From Gloeobacter kilaueensis JS1 (GTDB lineage Bacteria; Cyanobacteriota; Cyanobacteriia; Gloeobacterales; Gloeobacteraceae): 64,000 bases of DNA. The notes below the pieces were generated by a model. It had not been told where the DNA came from. It saw only the letters and a list, made by a program, of their open reading frames with translations, and did not search any database. The translations under genes were made by a program, and so were the position numbers. The stretch is from assembly GCF_000484535.1 (NCBI RefSeq), contig NC_022600.1, forward strand, positions 4,022,234 through 4,086,233, written 5' to 3'. This document shows positions 4,050 through 13,467 of this stretch, one piece after another. Numbering within the stretch: the first letter of the stretch is position 1; every line of letters begins with the position of its first letter.

Positions 4050-5003
4050 ATGGCCACCGATTACATCGTCTTTGTCCACGGAGTGAATACCCGCGAAAAG
4101 CGCGAGCAGCCTGGCTACGCCGATACGTTATTTTCGCGCATCGAAGACAACCTGCCAGAACCCGGACAGATTCAGCTAAAGAAAGTGCCTCTCTATTGGG
4201 GGGATGTCAATATCGAAGAAGAAGACAGGTTGCTGAGCGCCCTGGAGGGGTCCAGTACCTGGAAGCAGCTCTGGTTTCAAGAATTTCGCTCCAAACAGTT
4301 ACTGCAGTTTGCCGGTGACGCTGCCCTTTATATCAGCCGTGCCGTCGGTGCAAAAGTGGTGGACAGGCTCCTGGAGCAGGCAAAAGCGGGTTTGAGTAAC
4401 TTTAAAGAACAGGACCGGCTGCATCTTGTCACCCACAGTTGGGGAACGGTGATTCTTTTCGACGTGCTGTTTGCCGCGCGCTGGGATCCTGAAAATACCC
4501 CCGGCTATAAGAGCGTTCAAGAGATCCGAAAAATTCTGTATGGCCTGGAACCTGATGCCGGTTCGGGGCTGCGCCTCACGAGCATTCACACGATGGGCTC
4601 ACCGATTGCGATTTTCAGTTTGCTCGATATCGATGAGATTACAGAAGTCAAGCCCAGCCACGACATCACCCCCCAATTGCAACAGTTCCTCGAAAACATC
4701 CATCGGGTGCTGGGCAGTGCCCTGCCCTGGAACAACTTCATCCATCCCGGCGATCCGGTCGCTTACCCGCTGGAGGTGCTCCTGCCCCAGCTGGTGGACG
4801 GCGAGAGCAAGTTTCTCGATGTGCAGGACATCGTCACCCACAACGCGAACCTGGGCGACTACATCACCAACGCCTTCAGCCAGTCGATCCTTGCCCTGCT
4901 CCACGGTGGAGACGCCCACAGCAGCTACTGGCAGAGCGAAGAGGTGGCCAAAAAGATCGCCGAGCAGATCGCCAGAGTTGCCAGGAGAAACGGGCAGGGC
5001 TGA
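4050..5003 (+). CDS. Alpha/beta-hydrolase-like protein of unknown substrate
   Basis: 317 residues. The N-terminus DYIVFVHGVNT has the HG turn that follows strand beta-3 in alpha/beta hydrolases. LHLVTHSWGT near residue 130 is a nucleophile-elbow-like G/H-x-S-x-G with Ser in HSWG. A possible catalytic His lies in IVTHNANLGDY near residue 270. There is no signal peptide, so a cytoplasmic esterase or lipase-like role is plausible, but no substrate can be named. It stands alone, 279 bases from the divergent smc start, with a terminator 160 bases downstream. Confidence 0.6.
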   Translation: MATDYIVFVHGVNTREKREQPGYADTLFSRIEDNLPEPGQIQLKKVPLYWGDVNIEEEDRLLSALEGSSTWKQLWFQEFRSKQLLQFAGDAALYISRAVGAKVVDRLLEQAKAGLSNFKEQDRLHLVTHSWGTVILFDVLFAARWDPENTPGYKSVQEIRKILYGLEPDAGSGLRLTSIHTMGSPIAIFSLLDIDEITEVKPSHDITPQLQQFLENIHRVLGSALPWNNFIHPGDPVAYPLEVLLPQLVDGESKFLDVQDIVTHNANLGDYITNAFSQSILALLHGGDAHSSYWQSEEVAKKIAEQIARVARRNGQG

Positions 5004-5200: not shown

Positions 5201-7927
5201 TCAGCCCGGTTCGCTTCTGAGCATCTGCAGGTAGTGCTCGGTAAAGTCGCTGAGCGCGCTCAACCGGTCGGGATAGCGCTTGCCCACACTGGCTAAAAAA
5301 GCTTCGCGGGCGCGCTGTTCGTCGGGGTTGTTGGCCACCACCGCCAGCGAGCGAAAGCCCGGATAGTAGCGCACCGGGATGAGCAGACCGCCGTCGTCGA
5401 TGAGCCAGCGGGAGAAGACTTCGCGGCTGTTGGGAAAAAACTGGGCCGAGGCGTTGCGCGCCAGACTGGAGGCGCTGTAGCCGAACAGGCGCACGAACGA
5501 AGGCAGGGCACTCGGTTCGATGCGTCCAATCAGGCGGGTGCGCAGGTTCTGGAAGATCTTGGAGCTGTTGGGCGCTTTTTCGATCGTGTCCGGGTCCTGG
5601 GCGGAGATGACGACGCGCACCCCGGCTTTGGCCCCGTTGGCGCAGAGCCTGCCCACCAGACTGGCAATTTCGGCGCACTCGAATAAGATCGGCGCTTCAT
5701 CGAGAATAAAGAGCGAAGCGGGGGTAGCGAGGGCGCGGCGCAGGGCGGCGGCGTAGTTGGCGAGGGCCAGGACGGCCATATCTTCGATGTTGCTCACGTT
5801 GCGCAGGGCGAATACCAGTAGGGCGGCGTCGGAGCGGATCGTCGAAGGGGCACTCAACCTCTGGCCGACGCGGGAGTTGAGCCAGTAGGCCAGGCGCAGG
5901 CGGATGTGCTCGAAGGCAGGCCGCAGGCTGCTATCGTCTGAATCGACGCCGAGGCGCTCGGGCAACAAAAACGGCACCAGATCTTTTAGACACGGATACT
6001 CCTGCCAGGCGGTCGTCCCGAAACCGGCGCGGCTCGCCCGCTCGTAGCGCCGCTGAATCGTCGGGTCGCGCCAGAAGGCGACGACGCCCAGTTGCAGGAG
6101 CGAGCGCACCGTCTGGGTGAGCAGCGGATCGACCTGCTCGCGTCCGAGCACCATCACCATCAAGGCGGAGACGAGAAATTCTTGAAATTCTTCGAGGCGT
6201 TCAGCCTGGACCTCAGCGCTCCAGCCGCTCAGATCCGGTAGCTCGAAGAGGTTGAGGGTGTGGCGGCCCACATCGAAGTAACTGCCTCCGACAAAATCCG
6301 TAAAATCTGAAAAAGTCGAGGAGCCGTCGGGCTTGGGAAAGTCCATCGCGACCACCGGAATCTGGCGGACCAGGGCGTGGCGCATCAACACTTCAAGAAG
6401 AACCGATTTTCCAGACCGAGTCGTGCCAAAGAGCGCCAGGTTGCGGTGGCGTCGGTAGAGATCGAGCCAGACAGGACTCTGGCCCTCCTCGCTGATAAAT
6501 TCGATGCCGGTGCGATCGGCGCTCTGGACGCGGACCAGCGGCAAAAAGCCGGGCGCTTCTTCATCGAGCAATTCCAACCGGCGGTCGAAGGGAGCGACGA
6601 GCAGCCCGTCCCAGACGAAGGGCAGGCACTGAAAAAAGAGCTTCCAGGCGTAGGAGACCTCGCGCACCAATCGGGCCGGGCGGTTAAAAAAGTTCGAGAT
6701 AAACCGGCACCCGTCTGCCAATCGCAGCGGCTCGTCGCGCCAGACGAGCACGCAGACGGCGACGTACAGGGGCCGGGCACCCTCGATAAACGACTTTTCC
6801 AGTTCGGCTGCTTCCTCCAGCTTCATCTGCTGGGCGACATCGACAATCTTGCCCTGGCGCTGGCTTAGCTTCAGGCCCGCCGACGCCTGGCGCTGCAGGC
6901 GGACGGCGTTCTCGCGGCTGGTGCGCTCGTTGAGGGTCGAAAGTTCGACGACGATCTCGGTGTCGATCACCTCCTGGCGGGCGATCAGGTTCCACAGATA
7001 GCGCAACTGCTGAACCGGGTCGCTGAAGCCTGCTGGTTTTTCGTCCCAGACCAGTACCGCACAGTGCTTCCAGCGGCCATCGGCCCTGGCGATGCTCACC
7101 CGGTCCGCGCCGAGGCGGGGCGGCGTCTCAAACAGGGCACTGGCAAAGCTCAACTCGCCCTGGGCCGTCTCCTTGAGTTCGTTGCCGGCGAGCTGATAGA
7201 GCCGGGGGGGAGCCGCCGGGGGCGGGCTGGGGTTGACCTGCTTCCAGGCCCAGCCCAGCAACTCCTCGCTGCTTAGAGGCACCACCGGCAGGCGCGCTCC
7301 CAGGTTGAGCAGATGCACCCACTCGCGGCAGTGGGCGTGGGCGGCGCTCACCAGCCGATGCATCTGGGTGTGCAGGTCCGCTTCGCTCTCCCCCAGATAG
7401 CTCAACCACCACTCCTGCGCCCCCAGGGCAACCCGGTCGATCCAGTCGCGGGCGTAGGCTTGGGCGGACCACTCCGCCCAGGAAGGAAACAGCCACAGTT
7501 CGATCTGTTTGCGGCGGCCATCGGCGGCCAGGCGCTGCAGCCGCTCCAGTTCACCGGCCATCAGCCAGTCGAGGGATTCGCCTGGAGACCCGGTGCGCAG
7601 GGTTTCCAGTTCCTCCAGGCGATCGGCGCAGGCGACGAAGCTCGACAGCCGAAGCTGCAGCCGTCCACCGGCAGGTAGGTCGCGGCAGAGGGTCACCAGA
7701 CCCGCACAGGCATCGACGAGCGCCTCCTGCGACTGGCAGGCGTGGATGCCCGGCGTGCGCAGGCCAAACACGCAGCGGTAGGCGTGCTTGCGGCGGAGGA
7801 TATAAAACCCGCAGCTCAACTCCGGATGATTGACCTGGCCGACAGCGACGATATCGACCAGTTGTTCGACCGGCGTGAAGCCCTCCTTCTTGCGCAGCCG
7901 CTCAGAGGATCGCTGGGGCTTTTTCAT
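5201..7927 (-). CDS. VirB4/TraC-type conjugation ATPase
   Basis: 908 residues. The C-terminal half carries Walker A GTTRSGKS near residue 502, followed by VVAMDFPKPDGSS, and Walker B SLFILDEAPILFE near residue 740 with VVISAQDPDTI after it. This is the layout of VirB4/TraC/HerA-clade ATPases that power type IV secretion or conjugative pilus assembly. The N-terminal half is poorly conserved, as usual. It is the last gene of a minus-strand cluster and overlaps the small VirB3-like gene by four bases (ATGA), so the two are translationally coupled. Membrane-associated function is inferred from the family. Confidence 0.85.
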   Translation of the reverse strand: MKKPQRSSERLRKKEGFTPVEQLVDIVAVGQVNHPELSCGFYILRRKHAYRCVFGLRTPGIHACQSQEALVDACAGLVTLCRDLPAGGRLQLRLSSFVACADRLEELETLRTGSPGESLDWLMAGELERLQRLAADGRRKQIELWLFPSWAEWSAQAYARDWIDRVALGAQEWWLSYLGESEADLHTQMHRLVSAAHAHCREWVHLLNLGARLPVVPLSSEELLGWAWKQVNPSPPPAAPPRLYQLAGNELKETAQGELSFASALFETPPRLGADRVSIARADGRWKHCAVLVWDEKPAGFSDPVQQLRYLWNLIARQEVIDTEIVVELSTLNERTSRENAVRLQRQASAGLKLSQRQGKIVDVAQQMKLEEAAELEKSFIEGARPLYVAVCVLVWRDEPLRLADGCRFISNFFNRPARLVREVSYAWKLFFQCLPFVWDGLLVAPFDRRLELLDEEAPGFLPLVRVQSADRTGIEFISEEGQSPVWLDLYRRHRNLALFGTTRSGKSVLLEVLMRHALVRQIPVVAMDFPKPDGSSTFSDFTDFVGGSYFDVGRHTLNLFELPDLSGWSAEVQAERLEEFQEFLVSALMVMVLGREQVDPLLTQTVRSLLQLGVVAFWRDPTIQRRYERASRAGFGTTAWQEYPCLKDLVPFLLPERLGVDSDDSSLRPAFEHIRLRLAYWLNSRVGQRLSAPSTIRSDAALLVFALRNVSNIEDMAVLALANYAAALRRALATPASLFILDEAPILFECAEIASLVGRLCANGAKAGVRVVISAQDPDTIEKAPNSSKIFQNLRTRLIGRIEPSALPSFVRLFGYSASSLARNASAQFFPNSREVFSRWLIDDGGLLIPVRYYPGFRSLAVVANNPDEQRAREAFLASVGKRYPDRLSALSDFTEHYLQMLRSEPG

Positions 7928-8187
7928 TGCCTGAGCCGGGTGCGGGCCAGTTTTGGCGCAGCGATCATCTGGCCAAAAAAGCGGTGCGGGCGCTTACCGG
8001 CCAGAAGCAGCCAGAGCGTGCAGCCCCAGATGATGATCGTGGCGGTCCAGATCCAGTTGAGGCCCAGCACACCGCCCAGCACGAAGTAGCCGCCGATCAC
8101 CGTGAGGAGCCAGGGAAAGACCAGATCGCCGGGGATCAGGTTCAAAAAATCGGCTTTTTGTCCGAGCCTGCGGTTGAGTTTGCGCAT
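7924..8187 (-). CDS. Small two-helix membrane protein, VirB3-like position
   Basis: 87 residues with two adjacent hydrophobic stretches (about residues 22-42 and 44-62: FPWLLTVIGGYFVLGGVLGL and WIWTATIIIWGCTLWLLLA) followed by a basic tail. Size, topology and placement immediately before and overlapping the VirB4-type gene are those of VirB3. Sequence identity to VirB3 cannot be shown by eye, so the call rests on context. Confidence 0.6.
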   Translation of the reverse strand: MRKLNRRLGQKADFLNLIPGDLVFPWLLTVIGGYFVLGGVLGLNWIWTATIIIWGCTLWLLLAGKRPHRFFGQMIAAPKLARTRLRQ

Positions 8188-8197
8188 TGCTGTCCCC

Positions 8198-8593
8198 TCA
8201 ACCGGCAGGAATAATCAGGCTCGTGATCACGTCGCCGACGACGACGCTGATCGTGGCGAGGATCGGCACGCGGGCGGTGGTCTGCCAGTCCTCGTCGTTG
8301 CGCGCTGCCTGCACTGTCCTCACGATACCCAGGGCGATCCAGACGAGGAGCACGGCGCGCAGCACGTTGATCGTCATATCGACGCCAAAGACGGCAGTCG
8401 TGTTGCCGGTGCTTAAAAATAGCGTGTCAAGCCACACACGGGCGTTCTCAAAAAAGACGGCCTGGGCGGCTTTTGGGTGCAGGTAGCTGTCGGCGAGGGG
8501 CAAAAGGGTGGCAAACAACAGCCGCGCTCCACCGCCGGCGTGTCTGGACAGCGCGGCGCGGACGGCAAGAAGTTGAACAGGCCGAAAGGACAT
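8198..8593 (-). CDS. Membrane protein of the T4SS-like cluster
   Basis: 131 residues with three likely membrane segments: around residues 22-36 (ARLLFATLLPLAD), 75-93 (NVLRAVLLVWIALGIVRTV) and 108-128 (VPILATISVVVGDVITSLII). The stop is 10 bases before the next gene in the cluster. It could be a VirB2-like or VirB6-like membrane component, but no diagnostic motif is visible. The function is unknown beyond cluster membership. Confidence 0.6.
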   Translation of the reverse strand: MSFRPVQLLAVRAALSRHAGGGARLLFATLLPLADSYLHPKAAQAVFFENARVWLDTLFLSTGNTTAVFGVDMTINVLRAVLLVWIALGIVRTVQAARNDEDWQTTARVPILATISVVVGDVITSLIIPAG

Positions 8594-8604
8594 GACTTTT
8601 TCTC

Positions 8605-8811
8605 CTAAAGGGTTGGCATGGTAAGGCCGATAGCGCTCTGCAGCAGGTAGAGGCTGACTGGTGTGCCAAATTGCTGGCGCTGGTAGGTGTAGGCGGTCTG
8701 GCGGGCGGCAGCGTATTGCTGGGTGCCCACCAGCGACATCAGCCCAGGCACGAGGGTGCTCAGGTAGGGCTGCAGGGAGAAGAAGCTGGGTGGCGGAAAA
8801 TAAGAAGTCAT
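8605..8811 (-). CDS. Small hypothetical protein in T4SS-like cluster
   Basis: 68 residues, MTSYFPPPSFFSLQPYLST at the N-terminus and a moderately hydrophobic C-terminus (SLYLLQSAIGLTMPTL). It sits 11 bases from its downstream neighbour and 15 from its upstream neighbour, which supports it as a real operon member. No recognised family; a short membrane or pilus-associated peptide is possible. Confidence 0.5.
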   Translation of the reverse strand: MTSYFPPPSFFSLQPYLSTLVPGLMSLVGTQQYAAARQTAYTYQRQQFGTPVSLYLLQSAIGLTMPTL

Positions 8812-8826
8812 CCAGTTACCTCAAAT

Positions 8827-10119
8827 CTAGAGCGCGGGGGCGGCCTGCACTTGCGGTGCCTCCGGCAGTTGGGCCGCCGGAGAAGCTTCTTTGATCGACG
8901 AGCGGTTGCGCGCGTAGGCTCTCTGGCGGGCAAGGGTGAGCGGGTCACCGGCGGCCAGATCGAGCAGGACCGGCAGAGCGCTGAGCGAATCGAGGGAAAG
9001 GCGCTGGTAGAGCTTTGTGTAGCGCAGCAGGTTCTCGGCGTACTCGGGGTTGTAGGTGCGCCAGTTGCCGCCGTTGTGGGCCGCTGCCACCTTTTCGGGG
9101 TCGCCCGAGCGCATCGCAGCAAGCAGCCCCCCGTGCAGGCCCCGCGCGTCCTCGCCGTGGCGGATGAAATCGGCGAGCACCTGCAGCTGCGTTCTGGGGT
9201 CCGGCGACTGGATGGCGGTGAGAAGTTCGCTGCCACTTTTGCCGCTGCGCTGCTGCCAGCGATAATCGAGGGTCTGGTAGCCCGCGATCTGGCCGTAGCC
9301 GTAGGTCGTCGCCAGTTCTCGCAGCTGGCCGGGCGTAAAGTCGGCGAAGCTGCGCATCGCCTGCAATTTTGCTTCTGTGGTTGGACGGGGACCGGTCATA
9401 CTGGCGAGCAGTCCCGGCAGGCTGACCGCCTGGGCGTTTGCCCGTGCAAACAATTCATCGATCGCCTGTTTGTCATTGCCGGGATCGAAGTGTTCCAGTT
9501 GGGGGCGCTGGGCATTGAGCTGACGGTGGACCGCGCCGAGGGATCTAGCAAAGCTCGCCTCCCAGCGCGGCAGGCTGTGCTTGCCGCCGCTACTTTCTTG
9601 TTGCATGAGAGCGTAGAACCAGTCCGCCGGAATGTGCTGCGGGCCATCGCCCCCGGCAACCGCCTCCAGCTGCGCCCGGTAGTCCACCCCCAGGTGCGTA
9701 TGGCGATCGAGCCTGCCGTCTAGAATCGCGAGCTGCTGTTTGAAGCTGCTGGAGCCGAGGTGAGTGGCGCGGGCAGCCACCGCCTCGCCCAGGGCCTGAG
9801 CGGTGGTACCGTCGAAGGAACCCACCGGCAGATGATGCTCCTGCTGAAAGTTCTGAATCGCCCGCTGGGTGCCGGAGCCGAGCAGGCCGTCGATCGTTGC
9901 CGCTGAGGAGGAACCAGCGCCGGCGGTGTAGCCCAAAAAGACCAGTTGCCGCTGTAAACTCTTGACCGCCTCCGGGTCGCGGGCAAAGGCCGCACGGCTG
10001 TCTTCGCCTGTATCGAGGTTCTGCCAGAGGGTCTTTAGCTGATTGGCCCGCTCCCTGGTCCCATTGCCCAGCGCCACAGCGCGCGTTGCCGGATTGCGAA
10101 AAAGGTCCATCGCTCGCAC
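8827..10119 (-). CDS. Peptidoglycan-binding N-acetylmuramidase, VirB1-like role
   Basis: 430 residues. Residues about 50-110 form a peptidoglycan-binding domain (VKSLQRQLVFLGYTAG, IDGLLGSGTQRAIQNFQ). The rest resembles the lysozyme-like N-acetylmuramidase family (DUF3380): ADWFYALMQQESSGGK contains the likely catalytic Glu, and later blocks are TYGYGQIAGYQTLDYR, a helix with LQVLADFIRHG, and a late segment VAAAHNGGNWRTYNPEYAE typical of the family. In conjugation systems such enzymes open the cell wall for the channel. No signal peptide is evident, so export would depend on the machinery. Confidence 0.75.
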   Translation of the reverse strand: MRAMDLFRNPATRAVALGNGTRERANQLKTLWQNLDTGEDSRAAFARDPEAVKSLQRQLVFLGYTAGAGSSSAATIDGLLGSGTQRAIQNFQQEHHLPVGSFDGTTAQALGEAVAARATHLGSSSFKQQLAILDGRLDRHTHLGVDYRAQLEAVAGGDGPQHIPADWFYALMQQESSGGKHSLPRWEASFARSLGAVHRQLNAQRPQLEHFDPGNDKQAIDELFARANAQAVSLPGLLASMTGPRPTTEAKLQAMRSFADFTPGQLRELATTYGYGQIAGYQTLDYRWQQRSGKSGSELLTAIQSPDPRTQLQVLADFIRHGEDARGLHGGLLAAMRSGDPEKVAAAHNGGNWRTYNPEYAENLLRYTKLYQRLSLDSLSALPVLLDLAAGDPLTLARQRAYARNRSSIKEASPAAQLPEAPQVQAAPAL

Positions 10120-10122
10120 TCC

Positions 10123-10503
10123 TTAAAGGCTGTAGTGTCTCTGGGCCAGTTCGTCGCTGAGAGCCTGGTGAATCGCCTGAAAGATCGCCTCGTAACCGCG
10201 CTTGTCGGTCTGCAGCTCCAGATTAAGAAGCGAGCGGGTCACGATCTCGAGGTTGTCGAGGCGGGCCGCCAGGTAGGCTCCCTGGTTGATCTGCTCGGCT
10301 AAAAGCAGATTGCGCGCCTCGATAAGCTTGGCTTCGAGCGATTCTGCATCCGGCTCCGGCTGGTTGCCGAGTGGGTCGAGATTTTGCCTCACACTCCAAT
10401 CGAGGGCCGCGAGGGCGTACTCGATCGGCGTGCATTCGAGCTGTTCGCTCAGCGCCTGCAGCTGGTGGGCCAGCGCCTCTGAAATTTCAAGCGTGATCGC
10501 CAT
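10123..10503 (-). CDS. Hypothetical helical protein of T4SS-like cluster
   Basis: 126 residues, starting MAITLEISEALAHQLQALSEQ. The first 30 residues look like the short antitoxin or ribbon-helix-type N-termini that begin with a beta strand and a helix; the remainder is helical and acidic. It lies three bases downstream of the regulator-like gene and four upstream of the muramidase gene. It may bind DNA or a partner of the cluster, but this is a guess from composition. Confidence 0.5.
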   Translation of the reverse strand: MAITLEISEALAHQLQALSEQLECTPIEYALAALDWSVRQNLDPLGNQPEPDAESLEAKLIEARNLLLAEQINQGAYLAARLDNLEIVTRSLLNLELQTDKRGYEAIFQAIHQALSDELAQRHYSL

Positions 10504-10518
10504 CGTTTGCTCCTTTGC

Positions 10519-11718
10519 TTACGCGACGTTCAATTGCAGCGGCACAACCTGCTCGTGCTCCCGGCCACCTTCTTGCCAACAAAGCCGGATGTGGCGCACA
10601 CCCAGGTAATCAGCGGCGATCTGCCAGAAAAGCCGGGTCGAGCGGTGGCGCAGACAGCCCAGGGCGAAGTCGGCCTGGTAGGCGTCGCTGCAGTGGAGGT
10701 GCCATTCTCCTTGCTGGACGGTGCTTGCCAGTTGCCCGAGAAAGTCCCGGTACGGCTGGGGCGGATTGACTTCGCTAAAAAGACGCCGCCAGAAGGGTCT
10801 GAGCGTCGCCGCTTTGCCCTGCCGCCCGCGCGCCAGTTGCGCACTCAGGTAGCTTTGATCGCTGTTGTAGTGCCAGTCGCGGCCAGTGAGCATCTTCTCC
10901 AGCGCCGTGCAGGCAGAACCCACCTGAGCAAAGCGCTCCCGTCGGGTACTGTCGCGGCGGCACAGATCCAGATAAAAGACGGCGCGCTCCCACGCCTCCA
11001 GCGGCTGGCGCAGGCGCTGCAACATCGCCGTTACCTTCGACGGATCCGCTCCCAATAGCTGCTCGAGCGCCTCGATGTGGGTGGTGAGGGCAACCCACCG
11101 CTGCGGCACGCCCCGGCGGCTATCGGGCCAGAACGCCGGCAGCGTTGTCGGTGAATTCGTCTGGCCAGTGTCGCTTTTTTGCAGCAGACCCTGCAGTCGC
11201 GAGAGATTCTGACCAAATTGTTTTTCAAGAAGCAAATTCAGCACCTGCTCGCGGGCCGGCCCGCTCCAGCGCTCAATGAGTTGCACGGCACTGACGTCCG
11301 ATTCAAAGATATCGATTCCAGCCCGCTGCGCCCCTGTACGGCCCTGCAGGCGCACGACATGCCGTCGCAGGGTCCGCACCGAGACTTTATCGACGCTGCC
11401 CGCCGCGATGCCCTCCTTGAGAATCCGGGTGGCTTCCTCCGGTTCGAGGCGCATCAGTTCGGTGAGCCGTCCAACCCCCAACCCCAGCGCGCCGTGCAGC
11501 TCTGTCCGCTCCGCCAGGCGCATCGCGTGTCGGCTCACAGTATGGCCAAATGGACATCTTTCGGAGTCGAGAAAACTCTCAAAGCGAGCAAAGCCCATCT
11601 GGAGATAGAGCCGCTGCTGCTTGATGGCCAGAAGTGCCCTGCCAAGTTCCAGCCGCTGTCCAGCGTCCGGATCGCCGCTGTGGCGCAATTCATCGAGAAT
11701 CTGTAATTGGGAGATCAT
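10519..11718 (-). CDS. Putative helical DNA-binding protein heading the T4SS-like cluster
   Basis: 399 residues from the ATG at 11718, which has an AGGA ribosome-binding site nine bases before it; an upstream in-frame ATG at 11781 lacks one. The N-terminal region (LELGRALLAIKQQRLYLQMG, then FESFLDSERCPFGHTVSRHAM) resembles the helical modules of phage or plasmid DUF3102/ParB-like proteins that test for a helix-turn-helix. The C-terminus is unlike anything recognised. It is the first gene of the cluster and starts 161 bases from the tRNA-Ser gene, which suggests regulation or plasmid-type function. Confidence 0.5.
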   Translation of the reverse strand: MISQLQILDELRHSGDPDAGQRLELGRALLAIKQQRLYLQMGFARFESFLDSERCPFGHTVSRHAMRLAERTELHGALGLGVGRLTELMRLEPEEATRILKEGIAAGSVDKVSVRTLRRHVVRLQGRTGAQRAGIDIFESDVSAVQLIERWSGPAREQVLNLLLEKQFGQNLSRLQGLLQKSDTGQTNSPTTLPAFWPDSRRGVPQRWVALTTHIEALEQLLGADPSKVTAMLQRLRQPLEAWERAVFYLDLCRRDSTRRERFAQVGSACTALEKMLTGRDWHYNSDQSYLSAQLARGRQGKAATLRPFWRRLFSEVNPPQPYRDFLGQLASTVQQGEWHLHCSDAYQADFALGCLRHRSTRLFWQIAADYLGVRHIRLCWQEGGREHEQVVPLQLNVA

Positions 11719-11879
11719 TGGAGAAATCCTGCAACGTTCTTCGCTTGCAGGCATCATATCTAATCTGATTAATTCCCACAACTGGGATGATAAGAAGAAT
11801 TTTGTGTGGCCGGTGCCGGACAGTGGGGTGATGCCGTCCCCCTACGCCGCCGATGCCTGGTGGTACATTAGGGAGAGAT

Positions 11880-11964
11880 GGAGAGGTGGTAGAGCGGTTG
11901 ATTGCGCCGGTCTTGAAAACCGGAGAAGGGAAACCTTCCGTGGGTTCGAATCCCACCCTCTCCG
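11880..11964 (+). tRNA. tRNA-Ser (anticodon TGA)
   Basis: 85 bases. The acceptor stem GGAGAGG pairs with CCTCTCC; the anticodon arm is CCGGT CTTGAAA ACCGG; the long variable arm has GAAGG/CCTTC; the T arm is GTGGG TTCGAAT CCCAC. The discriminator is G and CCA is not encoded. It is the only complete copy among three related segments and is the integration target of the adjoining islands. Confidence 0.95.
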
Positions 11965-12074
11965 CTTACATTTCAGCCTCAAACCTTTACGGGATGGGAC
12001 TTTTTAGTGTTCGCGCTCTTCCCAGGCGACAGGGACAGACGTGTACAGAGTGGTACAGAGAGCTATAGAATTTA
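11904..12074 (+). repeat. Direct repeat 1: 3' half of tRNA-Ser plus downstream sequence (att-type site)
   Basis: Starts inside the tRNA at the anticodon stem and runs through the terminator-like segment ending TTTTTAGT (to 12008), then GTTCGCGCTCTTCCCAGGCG and following bases. It is repeated at 17070 and, as far as TTTTTAGT, at 18975. Placement at a tRNA 3' end identifies an att site. Confidence 0.9.
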
Positions 12075-12310: not shown

Positions 12311-13467
12311 CAGGGGCATTTCATTCTAAAGAGAATTTTGAGGGTTGACAGGCCAAACATACAGCGTCTCTGCGCCTGAGCACGGTTCTCCATCAACAGC
12401 GAACGCTACAGGTTCAACGCAAAGCTTCGCGCCACTGTCCACACTTGCACTAAAGGCAGGGTTCGGATGCGACTACGGTCCTCGCCGAAGGTCACGTCCT
12501 TTGGATAATGAACTTTATTCTCGATTCCCCAATGACCACGTATCCGCTCAGCAAATTCCCTCGCACTCGCTTCGATGCTCGACAGGTACCAGTGCGTCTT
12601 TATCGTTATACTCCCCCGCAACTCTCGATACCGCTCCAGGCAAATTAGCGTTTTTACTCCAAGCCAATCTGCAAAGCACTCTTCCTCTACCTTACAAATA
12701 CTCACCTGCCGTTTTTCTAAACGGTGGTGACCTTGCTCTTCACTCTCCCACTGCTCTTCCACCTCAAAGTTTTTGCGCACTCGCTCCAACAGTTTTGGCT
12801 GGTTGCCTTTGACGATGGCAATGTAGTGGTTTCCGCTTTCTATAATGCTTTGACAGTTTTTTTTGGGTATTTATAGCATCAAAAGTAAACACGACACCTT
12901 TGAGTGCTAACTGCTCGATGAGTGCTGGTAAGGCTTTAATTTCGTTACTTTTTTGAGCGACTTGCTGATGAGCAACAATCCAATCACGTTCGACGAGATA
13001 GGCATGAACGATTTGAATAGCAGGATGGGGTTCGCTGTGGGGGTTATTGTGCTGCACACAGTAAGAACCCTTCAGTACTTTCCCATCGAGGGCAATCGTC
13101 TCCCCAGCCAAAGGTTCAACCTTCAAGAACTGCGCAATGCAGGCGGCGTACTGCTGATAGTCGATTTGTAAGAGGACACGGCGGATTGTACTGTAGGAGG
13201 GCAGGCGTTGCTTTTCAATATCAAACAGTTCGATGAGAGCTTCTGAGTTGGCTTTGATCCAGTCGTCGATAGCGAGGAAGCCCCGATTACCGGCAACAAC
13301 AGCTATGGTAAAAATAGTCAAGCACAAAGACAAAGAGTGTCTGCGTCCTTCCCCTCGGCGTTGGTCCGTCAGATTCTCAAAAGCATGAAGGATGGCGAAG
13401 TCGCGCACTGGAAAACCTGCTACGCCTGTTCTCCAGCTAGTCTAACCTATAGAATGAAACAACCCTG
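12311..13467 (-). mobile_element. ISAs1-family insertion sequence, decayed
   Basis: 1157 bp bounded by imperfect inverted repeats: left CAGGGGCATTTCATTCTAAA and right (reversed) CAGGGTTGTTTCATTCTATA. The encoded transposase is of the ISAs1 family. No matching 8-10 bp target duplication is seen (TATCAGCA on the left, GTATTTGG on the right), which fits a later deletion at one side that also removed the integrase. Confidence 0.8.
12406..13408 (-). pseudogene. ISAs1-family transposase, frameshifted and with a premature stop
   Basis: The first part (MRDFAILHAFENLTDQRRGE to GVVFTFDAINTQKK) and the second (LLERVRKNFEVEEQWESE to HWGIENKVHYPKDVTFGEDR and RTLPLVQVWTVARSFALNL) belong to one transposase. 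They are separated by a one-base shift in a run of eight A (12857-12864); with seven A the frame would read NTQKNCQSIIESGNHYIAIV. A TAG at 12406 stops the protein before the usual tail, and the tail still reads RAQRRCMFGLSTLKILFRMK beyond it. Two lesions make it a pseudogene, although slippage on A8 could rescue the first. Confidence 0.85.

Follow-up and report, generated by a model that had tools for sequence, protein, structure and literature searches.

Gene content of a probable VirB/VirD4 system of the cyanobacterial class, split over three chromosomal loci in Gloeobacter kilaueensis

Is a compact cluster of Gloeobacter kilaueensis JS1, in which seven genes end in that of a VirB4-type ATPase, a self-contained device or one part of a larger secretion machine? 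The cluster occupies positions 5201-11718 of the window, a stretch of 64,000 nucleotides (C1:4022234-4086233) from the single 4,724,791-base chromosome of this genome (G000). It had originally been predicted to be a minimal type IV secretion-like cluster, either a reduced transfer or secretion device or the leftover of a conjugative element. The link to type IV secretion or conjugation stood, but the cluster is not minimal, since VirB5, B6, B8, B9, B10 and VirD4 lie at two other loci; the reduced machine was rejected after class-specific profiles had located these remaining parts. Gene matches reveal three modules (I, II and III) that coexist in one chromosome and recur in relatives, and it is very probable that they encode a split, chromosomal VirB/VirD4 type IV secretion system (T4SS) of the cyanobacterial class (MPF_C).

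Module I consists of seven open reading frames (ORFs) on the minus strand, read from 11718 to 5201 with short or overlapping junctions, in agreement with the original prediction of a same-strand cluster with virB4 last. In order, they encode a 399-aa lineage-specific head protein (g399; 10519..11718), a 126-aa protein (g126; 10123..10503), a 430-aa peptidoglycan-binding and muramidase-like protein (8827..10119), a genus-restricted 68-aa protein (g68; 8605..8811), a VirB2-like protein in the pilin position (131 aa; 8198..8593), a VirB3-like protein (87 aa; 7924..8187; 4-base overlap with the virB4 start) and the VirB4-type ATPase (908 aa; 5201..7927). The ATPase, correctly named from the outset, has its Walker A motif at residue 501 and matches the NCBIfam models TraC-F (E=1.3e-8) and VirB4_CagE (3.6e-7), both far under the curated cut-offs. 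Among 145 genomes 36 have relatives (E<=0.001), and so do 114 of 72,556 plasmid records, with identity outside the family reaching 44% across nearly the full length, and no relative was found in the viral contigs searched. Judged by these matches, homology of VirB4 to the cyanobacterial conjugation class is not in doubt. The 87-aa gene directly precedes virB4, the same place as the VirB3-type gene of plasmids, and its product has two transmembrane (TM)-like stretches, consistent with the helix pair proposed for it. Among three small proteins described as membrane or helical, the 131-aa one fits, with its VirB2 position and an AxA cleavage-like motif at 43-45 followed by a hairpin of two hydrophobic helices (18 loci aligned), but no TM-like stretch is seen in the 68-aa or the 126-aa one. 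The structure-based search that had been suggested for the small proteins yielded a VirB2-like model of the hairpin (predicted local distance difference test score, pLDDT, 80.5) but no match in a PDB fold search. In the fetched loci, the 131-aa, 87-aa and VirB4 genes correspond in order to the opening three genes of complete clusters, for example on Trichormus variabilis plasmid A, where the cluster continues to VirD4 and a relaxase-domain gene. On that plasmid a group II intron reverse-transcriptase gene appears to divide the VirB2-like gene in two (L033:10229-13394).

Missing from the cluster, according to the original prediction, were a relaxase, VirD4, VirB8, VirB9 and VirB10; this holds for the cluster but not for the chromosome, which carries module II and a MobA/MobL relaxase gene. 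Nine genomes were searched with profiles that each combined 4 to 15 members of the class, and together with ORF maps the matches place VirB8-VirB10-VirB9-X-VirD4 at 1.036-1.041 Mb of G000 (module II) and VirB5-VirB6 at 2.718 Mb (module III), so that more than one megabase lies between the three modules. The module II profile matches are VirD4 (1036208-1037791; E 8.1e-181), VirB9 (1038948-1039379; E 3.9e-16), VirB10 (1039409-1040686; E 1.1e-59) and VirB8 (1040725-1041414; E 1.5e-54), and VirB6 of module III lies at 2718792-2719775 (E 2.4e-36). VirD4 also matches TrwB_AAD_bind (2.6e-28) and TraG-D_C (6.5e-27), and VirB10 matches TrbI under its cut-off (1.3e-6; 28.8 bits against 35). The same cell thus contains class-specific VirB2, B3, B5, B6, B8, B10 and VirD4 and a VirB4 within the cyanobacterial clade, and a gene in the VirB9 position is present in G000 and the three other genomes of the genus (G001, G002 and G003).

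The head gene and the muramidase-like gene have no match in the 72,556 plasmid records. The latter product matches PG_binding_1 (E=2e-10) and keeps the motif QES.GG in 5/5 sequences, and a match to PF11860 (E=8e-4; 20.2 bits) falls under the cut-off of 22.3. In one relative (L053) the X protein itself bears a peptidoglycan hydrolase domain (Peptidase_M23, E 1.3e-35), whereas Gloeobacter has a short X and encodes the hydrolase separately in module I, which supports the VirB1 role proposed for it. That role is a candidate one, and the protein could also be an exported lytic effector. The head protein, predicted to be DNA-binding-like, has no family match; its model (mean pLDDT 60.5) suggests a DNA-binding start with low confidence, and none of its fold matches is significant, the top ones including DnaA domain I (E 1.3) and the tau subunit of DNA polymerase III, matched in its C-terminal domain (E about 0.5).

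The search for the same cluster in relatives, also suggested with the original prediction, showed that the three-way split is present in 4/4 genus genomes and in the sister genus (G004), and is partly decayed in a third genus (G005). G001, G002 and G003 each carry the full seven-gene module I together with modules II and III, and the frames are open in all four genus genomes. Besides modules II and III, G004 has g399-VirB2-VirB3-VirB4, three genes of module I being absent. In G005, one contig carries tRNA-Ser, g399, g126, the muramidase gene and a truncated VirB2, a second VirB8-VirB10-VirB9-X and a third VirD4. For the further genomes of the order, G006 and G008 gave no match to VirB4, VirB6, VirB8, VirB9 or VirB10, and G007 possesses its own T4SS cluster in one single chromosomal region. 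VirB6, VirB8, VirB10 and VirD4 were matched in the chromosomes of G000-G004 (E<=3e-32), and VirB9 in those of G000-G003 (E 4e-16 to 6e-11).

Module I adjoins tRNA-Ser(UGA) (window 11880..11965, plus strand) in G000-G003 and G005, as had been noted for the window, but the predicted hot spot was not borne out: the cluster lies 5' of this divergently transcribed tRNA gene in 4/4 genus genomes and in another genus, as a constant neighbour. Integration at the tRNA site was rejected on the same ground (att repeats were not searched). The opposite flank of module I varies between species. Module II adjoins tRNA-Asn(GUU) in G000-G004; in G005 the distance is about 1.5 kb.

Trees of VirB4, VirB6, VirB8, VirB10 and VirD4 (23, 21, 23, 24 and 12 rows, respectively) place the Gloeobacteraceae split set on one side of a branch with full support in 5/5 cases (Shimodaira-Hasegawa-like approximate likelihood ratio test, SH-aLRT, 100%); these are quick maximum-likelihood searches under a simple model, with long branches in places and with only cyanobacterial sequences in the VirB4 rows. 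The plasmid copy of G003 falls outside this branch. It belongs to a sister-species plasmid (G003:C2; L049) on which a cluster from VirB2 to VirD4 is accompanied by a relaxase; this lineage is separate from the chromosomal split system, and its VirD4 match contains one internal TGA. The ratio of nonsynonymous to synonymous substitution rates (dN/dS; NG86) was computed for the pairs G000-G001, G001-G002, G001-G003 and G002-G003, pairs with G004 being at or close to saturation. It is 0.07-0.19 for VirB4, 0.10-0.18 for VirD4, 0.07-0.25 for VirB6, 0.11-0.29 for VirB8, 0.21-0.36 for VirB10, 0.08-0.19 for g399 and 0.13-0.28 for the muramidase. Altogether 13 of 14 genes stay at 0.36 or less; the remaining one, g126, gives 0.23 in the wide pair and 0.47-0.58 in close pairs (about 0.5), indicating weak constraint. 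At the level of sequence, the components of the split system are under purifying selection and were inherited as one lineage.

Modules I and II also have a common upstream palindrome, TCCCAyTTGTGGGAAT, which is operator-like and lies at window 11770..11787 (minus strand) before module I. A weight matrix from eight sites of G000-G003 was scanned over 461,413 bases, a non-random set of loci picked for T4SS genes or relaxases (L073 duplicates L038). It scored 20.5 at module I of G004, 19.4 at module I of G005 and 12.5 at module II of G005, and unexpectedly 19.5 at the G000 MobA/MobL gene. The next highest value was 15.0 over the whole scan and 14.2 over 362 kb. When seven genomes were scanned with YCCCANTTKTGGGAAW, allowing up to one mismatch, 20 matches were obtained against 9 for a reversed control pattern. 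All six exact matches stand before one of these two modules, module I in G000-G003 and module II in G000 and G001. The 14 inexact ones comprise the G000 relaxase site, four before a YdjM-family gene, three inside alaS and one before an ABC gene (G000 only), the leftover ones being in other frames or the two of G007; chance probably accounts for the alaS matches, which come from 3 genomes, and for those in other frames. The site before the YdjM-family membrane protein gene is a related palindrome (TCCCACTTTGGGGAAT or a near variant) found in 4/4 genus genomes (L161, L162, L171 and L172; family assignment checked in L172 alone). A common operator before all three modules was rejected, as none is found at module III. 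Since g399 occurs in 6/145 genomes, all of them Gloeobacteraceae with module I at least partly present, it is the natural candidate for a regulator acting at the palindrome.

What might such a machine do? We consider it probable that the modules form a domesticated, split and co-regulated T4SS of the cyanobacterial class whose usual cargo would be protein, and their function as a protein exporter is to a similar degree probable, because VirD4 is strongly conserved and no intact relaxase is conserved with it. T4SS without a relaxase are often protein exporters according to excerpts of Guglielmini et al. 2011 (PMC3158045). In the proposed mechanism, g399 would bind the palindrome and switch modules I and II jointly, and the muramidase would open the peptidoglycan. 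VirB4 would then drive assembly of a VirB2 pilus or channel through an envelope complex of VirB6-B8-B9-B10, with VirD4 supplying the substrates. These would be proteins, delivered to neighbouring cells or released, rather than the element's own DNA. A fuller scenario, which we put forward tentatively and at somewhat less than even chances, is that a conjugation machine was domesticated before the Gloeobacteraceae diversified, was broken into three modules, two of which share a palindrome that g399 reads, and is now dedicated to protein delivery, probably from bacterium to bacterium; within the regulon of one species, a probably dead relaxase would have been retained or acquired, and might serve to carry cargo.

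Several observations weigh against protein export by such a machine. Export, cargo and assembly of the putative machine are read from its genes, and no effector or immunity genes were identified. The names VirB2, VirB5, VirB8 and VirB9 follow from order, length, topology and similarity to plasmid genes of the cyanobacterial class, the X protein has no family match, and no T4SS structure came up when the PDB was searched with profiles of VirB2, VirB8, VirB9 and VirB10. The palindrome is lacking at module III (best score 8.7, the remaining four 3.8 or less) and at module II of G004. Moreover, G004 has no VirB9 match by profile, and in G005 VirB4 and VirB6 were not found (530 contigs, 93% complete), while its truncated VirB2 runs into unrelated sequence; the machine can therefore be lost. 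The remaining counterpoints concern relaxases, which G003 carries as four PF03432 matches on contigs C2 and C3 (plasmids) and on the chromosome, and G002 as Mob_Pre, encoded on a small contig.

These relaxases favour the main rival explanation, in our view an unlikely one, in which the scattered machine still transfers DNA by mobilising, in trans, the chromosome or relaxase plasmids with the help of relaxases whose genes lie at other places in the cell; VirD4 family members of close kin also act in conjugation. Relaxases were searched with four Pfam families (PF03432, PF01076, PF08751 and PF03389). The first three have no match in G000, G001 or G004, and no relaxase of the four families lies at any of the three loci in G000 (other families were not searched). 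A short relaxase ORF about 4.6 kb from module III is confined to G003, and G007 has a TrwC. The only gene over the PF03389 cut-off is the MobA/MobL of G000 (E=3.3e-52; 1.418 Mb; L152:9340-10218, minus strand), which stands beside a transposase-like ORF (named by eye); G001 has a sub-threshold fragment. The palindrome near-copy of this gene, about 10 bases 5' of its first start codon, speaks for DNA transfer in the past or present, and is likewise a point against dedicated protein export. However, aligned with plasmid MobQ homologues, the G000 protein has FAQ in place of the HAH found in 3/3 of them, and retains Tyr26 and His126. The HxH histidines, the tyrosine and the further histidine presumably form the relaxase active site, and the G000 protein is probably inactive as a nickase. 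No other fetched relaxase locus bears the palindrome, and in G001 and G004 no intact cognate relaxase exceeds the cut-offs of the four families (others were not searched). Splitting of a conjugation system on the megabase scale also blocks self-transfer. An integrative and conjugative element (ICE) combines a single T4SS cluster with an integrase and a relaxase; here the T4SS genes occupy three loci (integrases were not profile-searched).

That the modules are what remains of an ancient conjugative element in decay, as was offered in the original prediction, seems highly improbable. The losses in G005 and the absence of VirB9 and of three module I genes in G004 are what such decay would leave, but the open frames in four genus genomes, the low dN/dS of 13/14 genes (0.07-0.19 for VirB4), the co-retention of three unlinked modules across the genus and sister genus and the conserved palindrome contradict it. 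Slimmer still are the chances of a DNA release or uptake machine in the style of the gonococcal genetic island or ComB. A chromosomal T4SS without a conserved relaxase and with a muramidase in module I would suit it, but here VirD4 ranks with the most strongly conserved components, while to our knowledge ComB-type uptake systems have no VirD4; the gonococcal system retains its own relaxase. A HerA/NurA-type DNA-processing ATPase without a link to secretion can practically be dismissed, as the HerA-domain matches are weak (DUF87, E=0.077; PADLOC HerA, E=0.0043), none of the seven proteins matches a NurA family, and both the VirB4 tree and the VirB2-VirB3-VirB4 order, collinear and matching in sequence with complete conjugation clusters, contradict it. 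The PADLOC model mad8 matches VirB4 (E=3e-13) in the ATPase domain only.

The preferred reading, a domesticated and split T4SS, can be compared with known systems. MPF_C plasmid systems (pCC7120alpha type; Trichormus variabilis plasmid A) share with it the VirB2-B3-B4 order and a recognisable VirB5, B6, B8, B9, B10, X and VirD4. In contrast to them, the Gloeobacter set is spread over three chromosomal loci without a conserved relaxase, forms a separate clade, and adds g399, the muramidase and the shared palindrome. The nearest parallel is the vir-type T4SS of Rickettsia, described in part of Gillespie et al. (PMC2653234) as an 'archipelago of five islets', which is likewise chromosomal, vertically kept, scattered and equipped with VirD4, but belongs to another class (with VirB11) and to obligate intracellular hosts of another phylum; the scattering in the two groups presumably arose independently. 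The excerpts of Guglielmini et al. 2011 describe scattered T4SS as relatively rare apart from Rickettsiales and cyanobacterial ICEs as found in Cyanothece only. Their MOBless T4SS, with cyanobacteria named among the environmental cases, have no nearby relaxase either, but are single clusters, unlike the three loci of Gloeobacter. A 2021 survey (PMC8600333), in the portion consulted, searched plasmids with VirB4, VirD4 and relaxase of pCC7120alpha and reports no mobile plasmids in Gloeobacterales. We found no description of a split Gloeobacter T4SS in the open-access literature, judged by titles and opening abstract text.

If the fuller scenario holds, a free-living photosynthesiser from an early branch of the oxygenic phototrophs would have arrived independently at a counterpart of the Rickettsia vir archipelago. 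The system would be a free-living, non-pathogenic case of a chromosome-tied conjugation apparatus in which the loss of mobility can be traced gene by gene. Scattered machines of this kind tend to be overlooked or misfiled by cluster-based T4SS detectors. It also becomes testable whether Gloeobacter, which lacks thylakoids and is sister to other cyanobacteria, exchanges protein or DNA with its neighbours.

Some further features were recorded. A collinear VirB2-B3-B4-B5-B6-B8-B8b-B10-B9 cluster is widespread in Nostocales and other genomes (L074-L151; VirB4 identity about 42%), with the full set in 58/80 loci examined. VirD4, X or a relaxase occurs within about 9 kb in 0/80 of these loci, many contigs ending early, and few flanking genes are common to them (at most 15/59 long loci). 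Within the window, a DDHD-domain protein (4050-5003; E 8.3e-7) is encoded between SMC and virB4, and is absent beside the cluster in other species. A transposase fragment (12764-13408; DDE_Tnp_1_assoc, E 8.4e-20) lies on the 3' side of tRNA-Ser.

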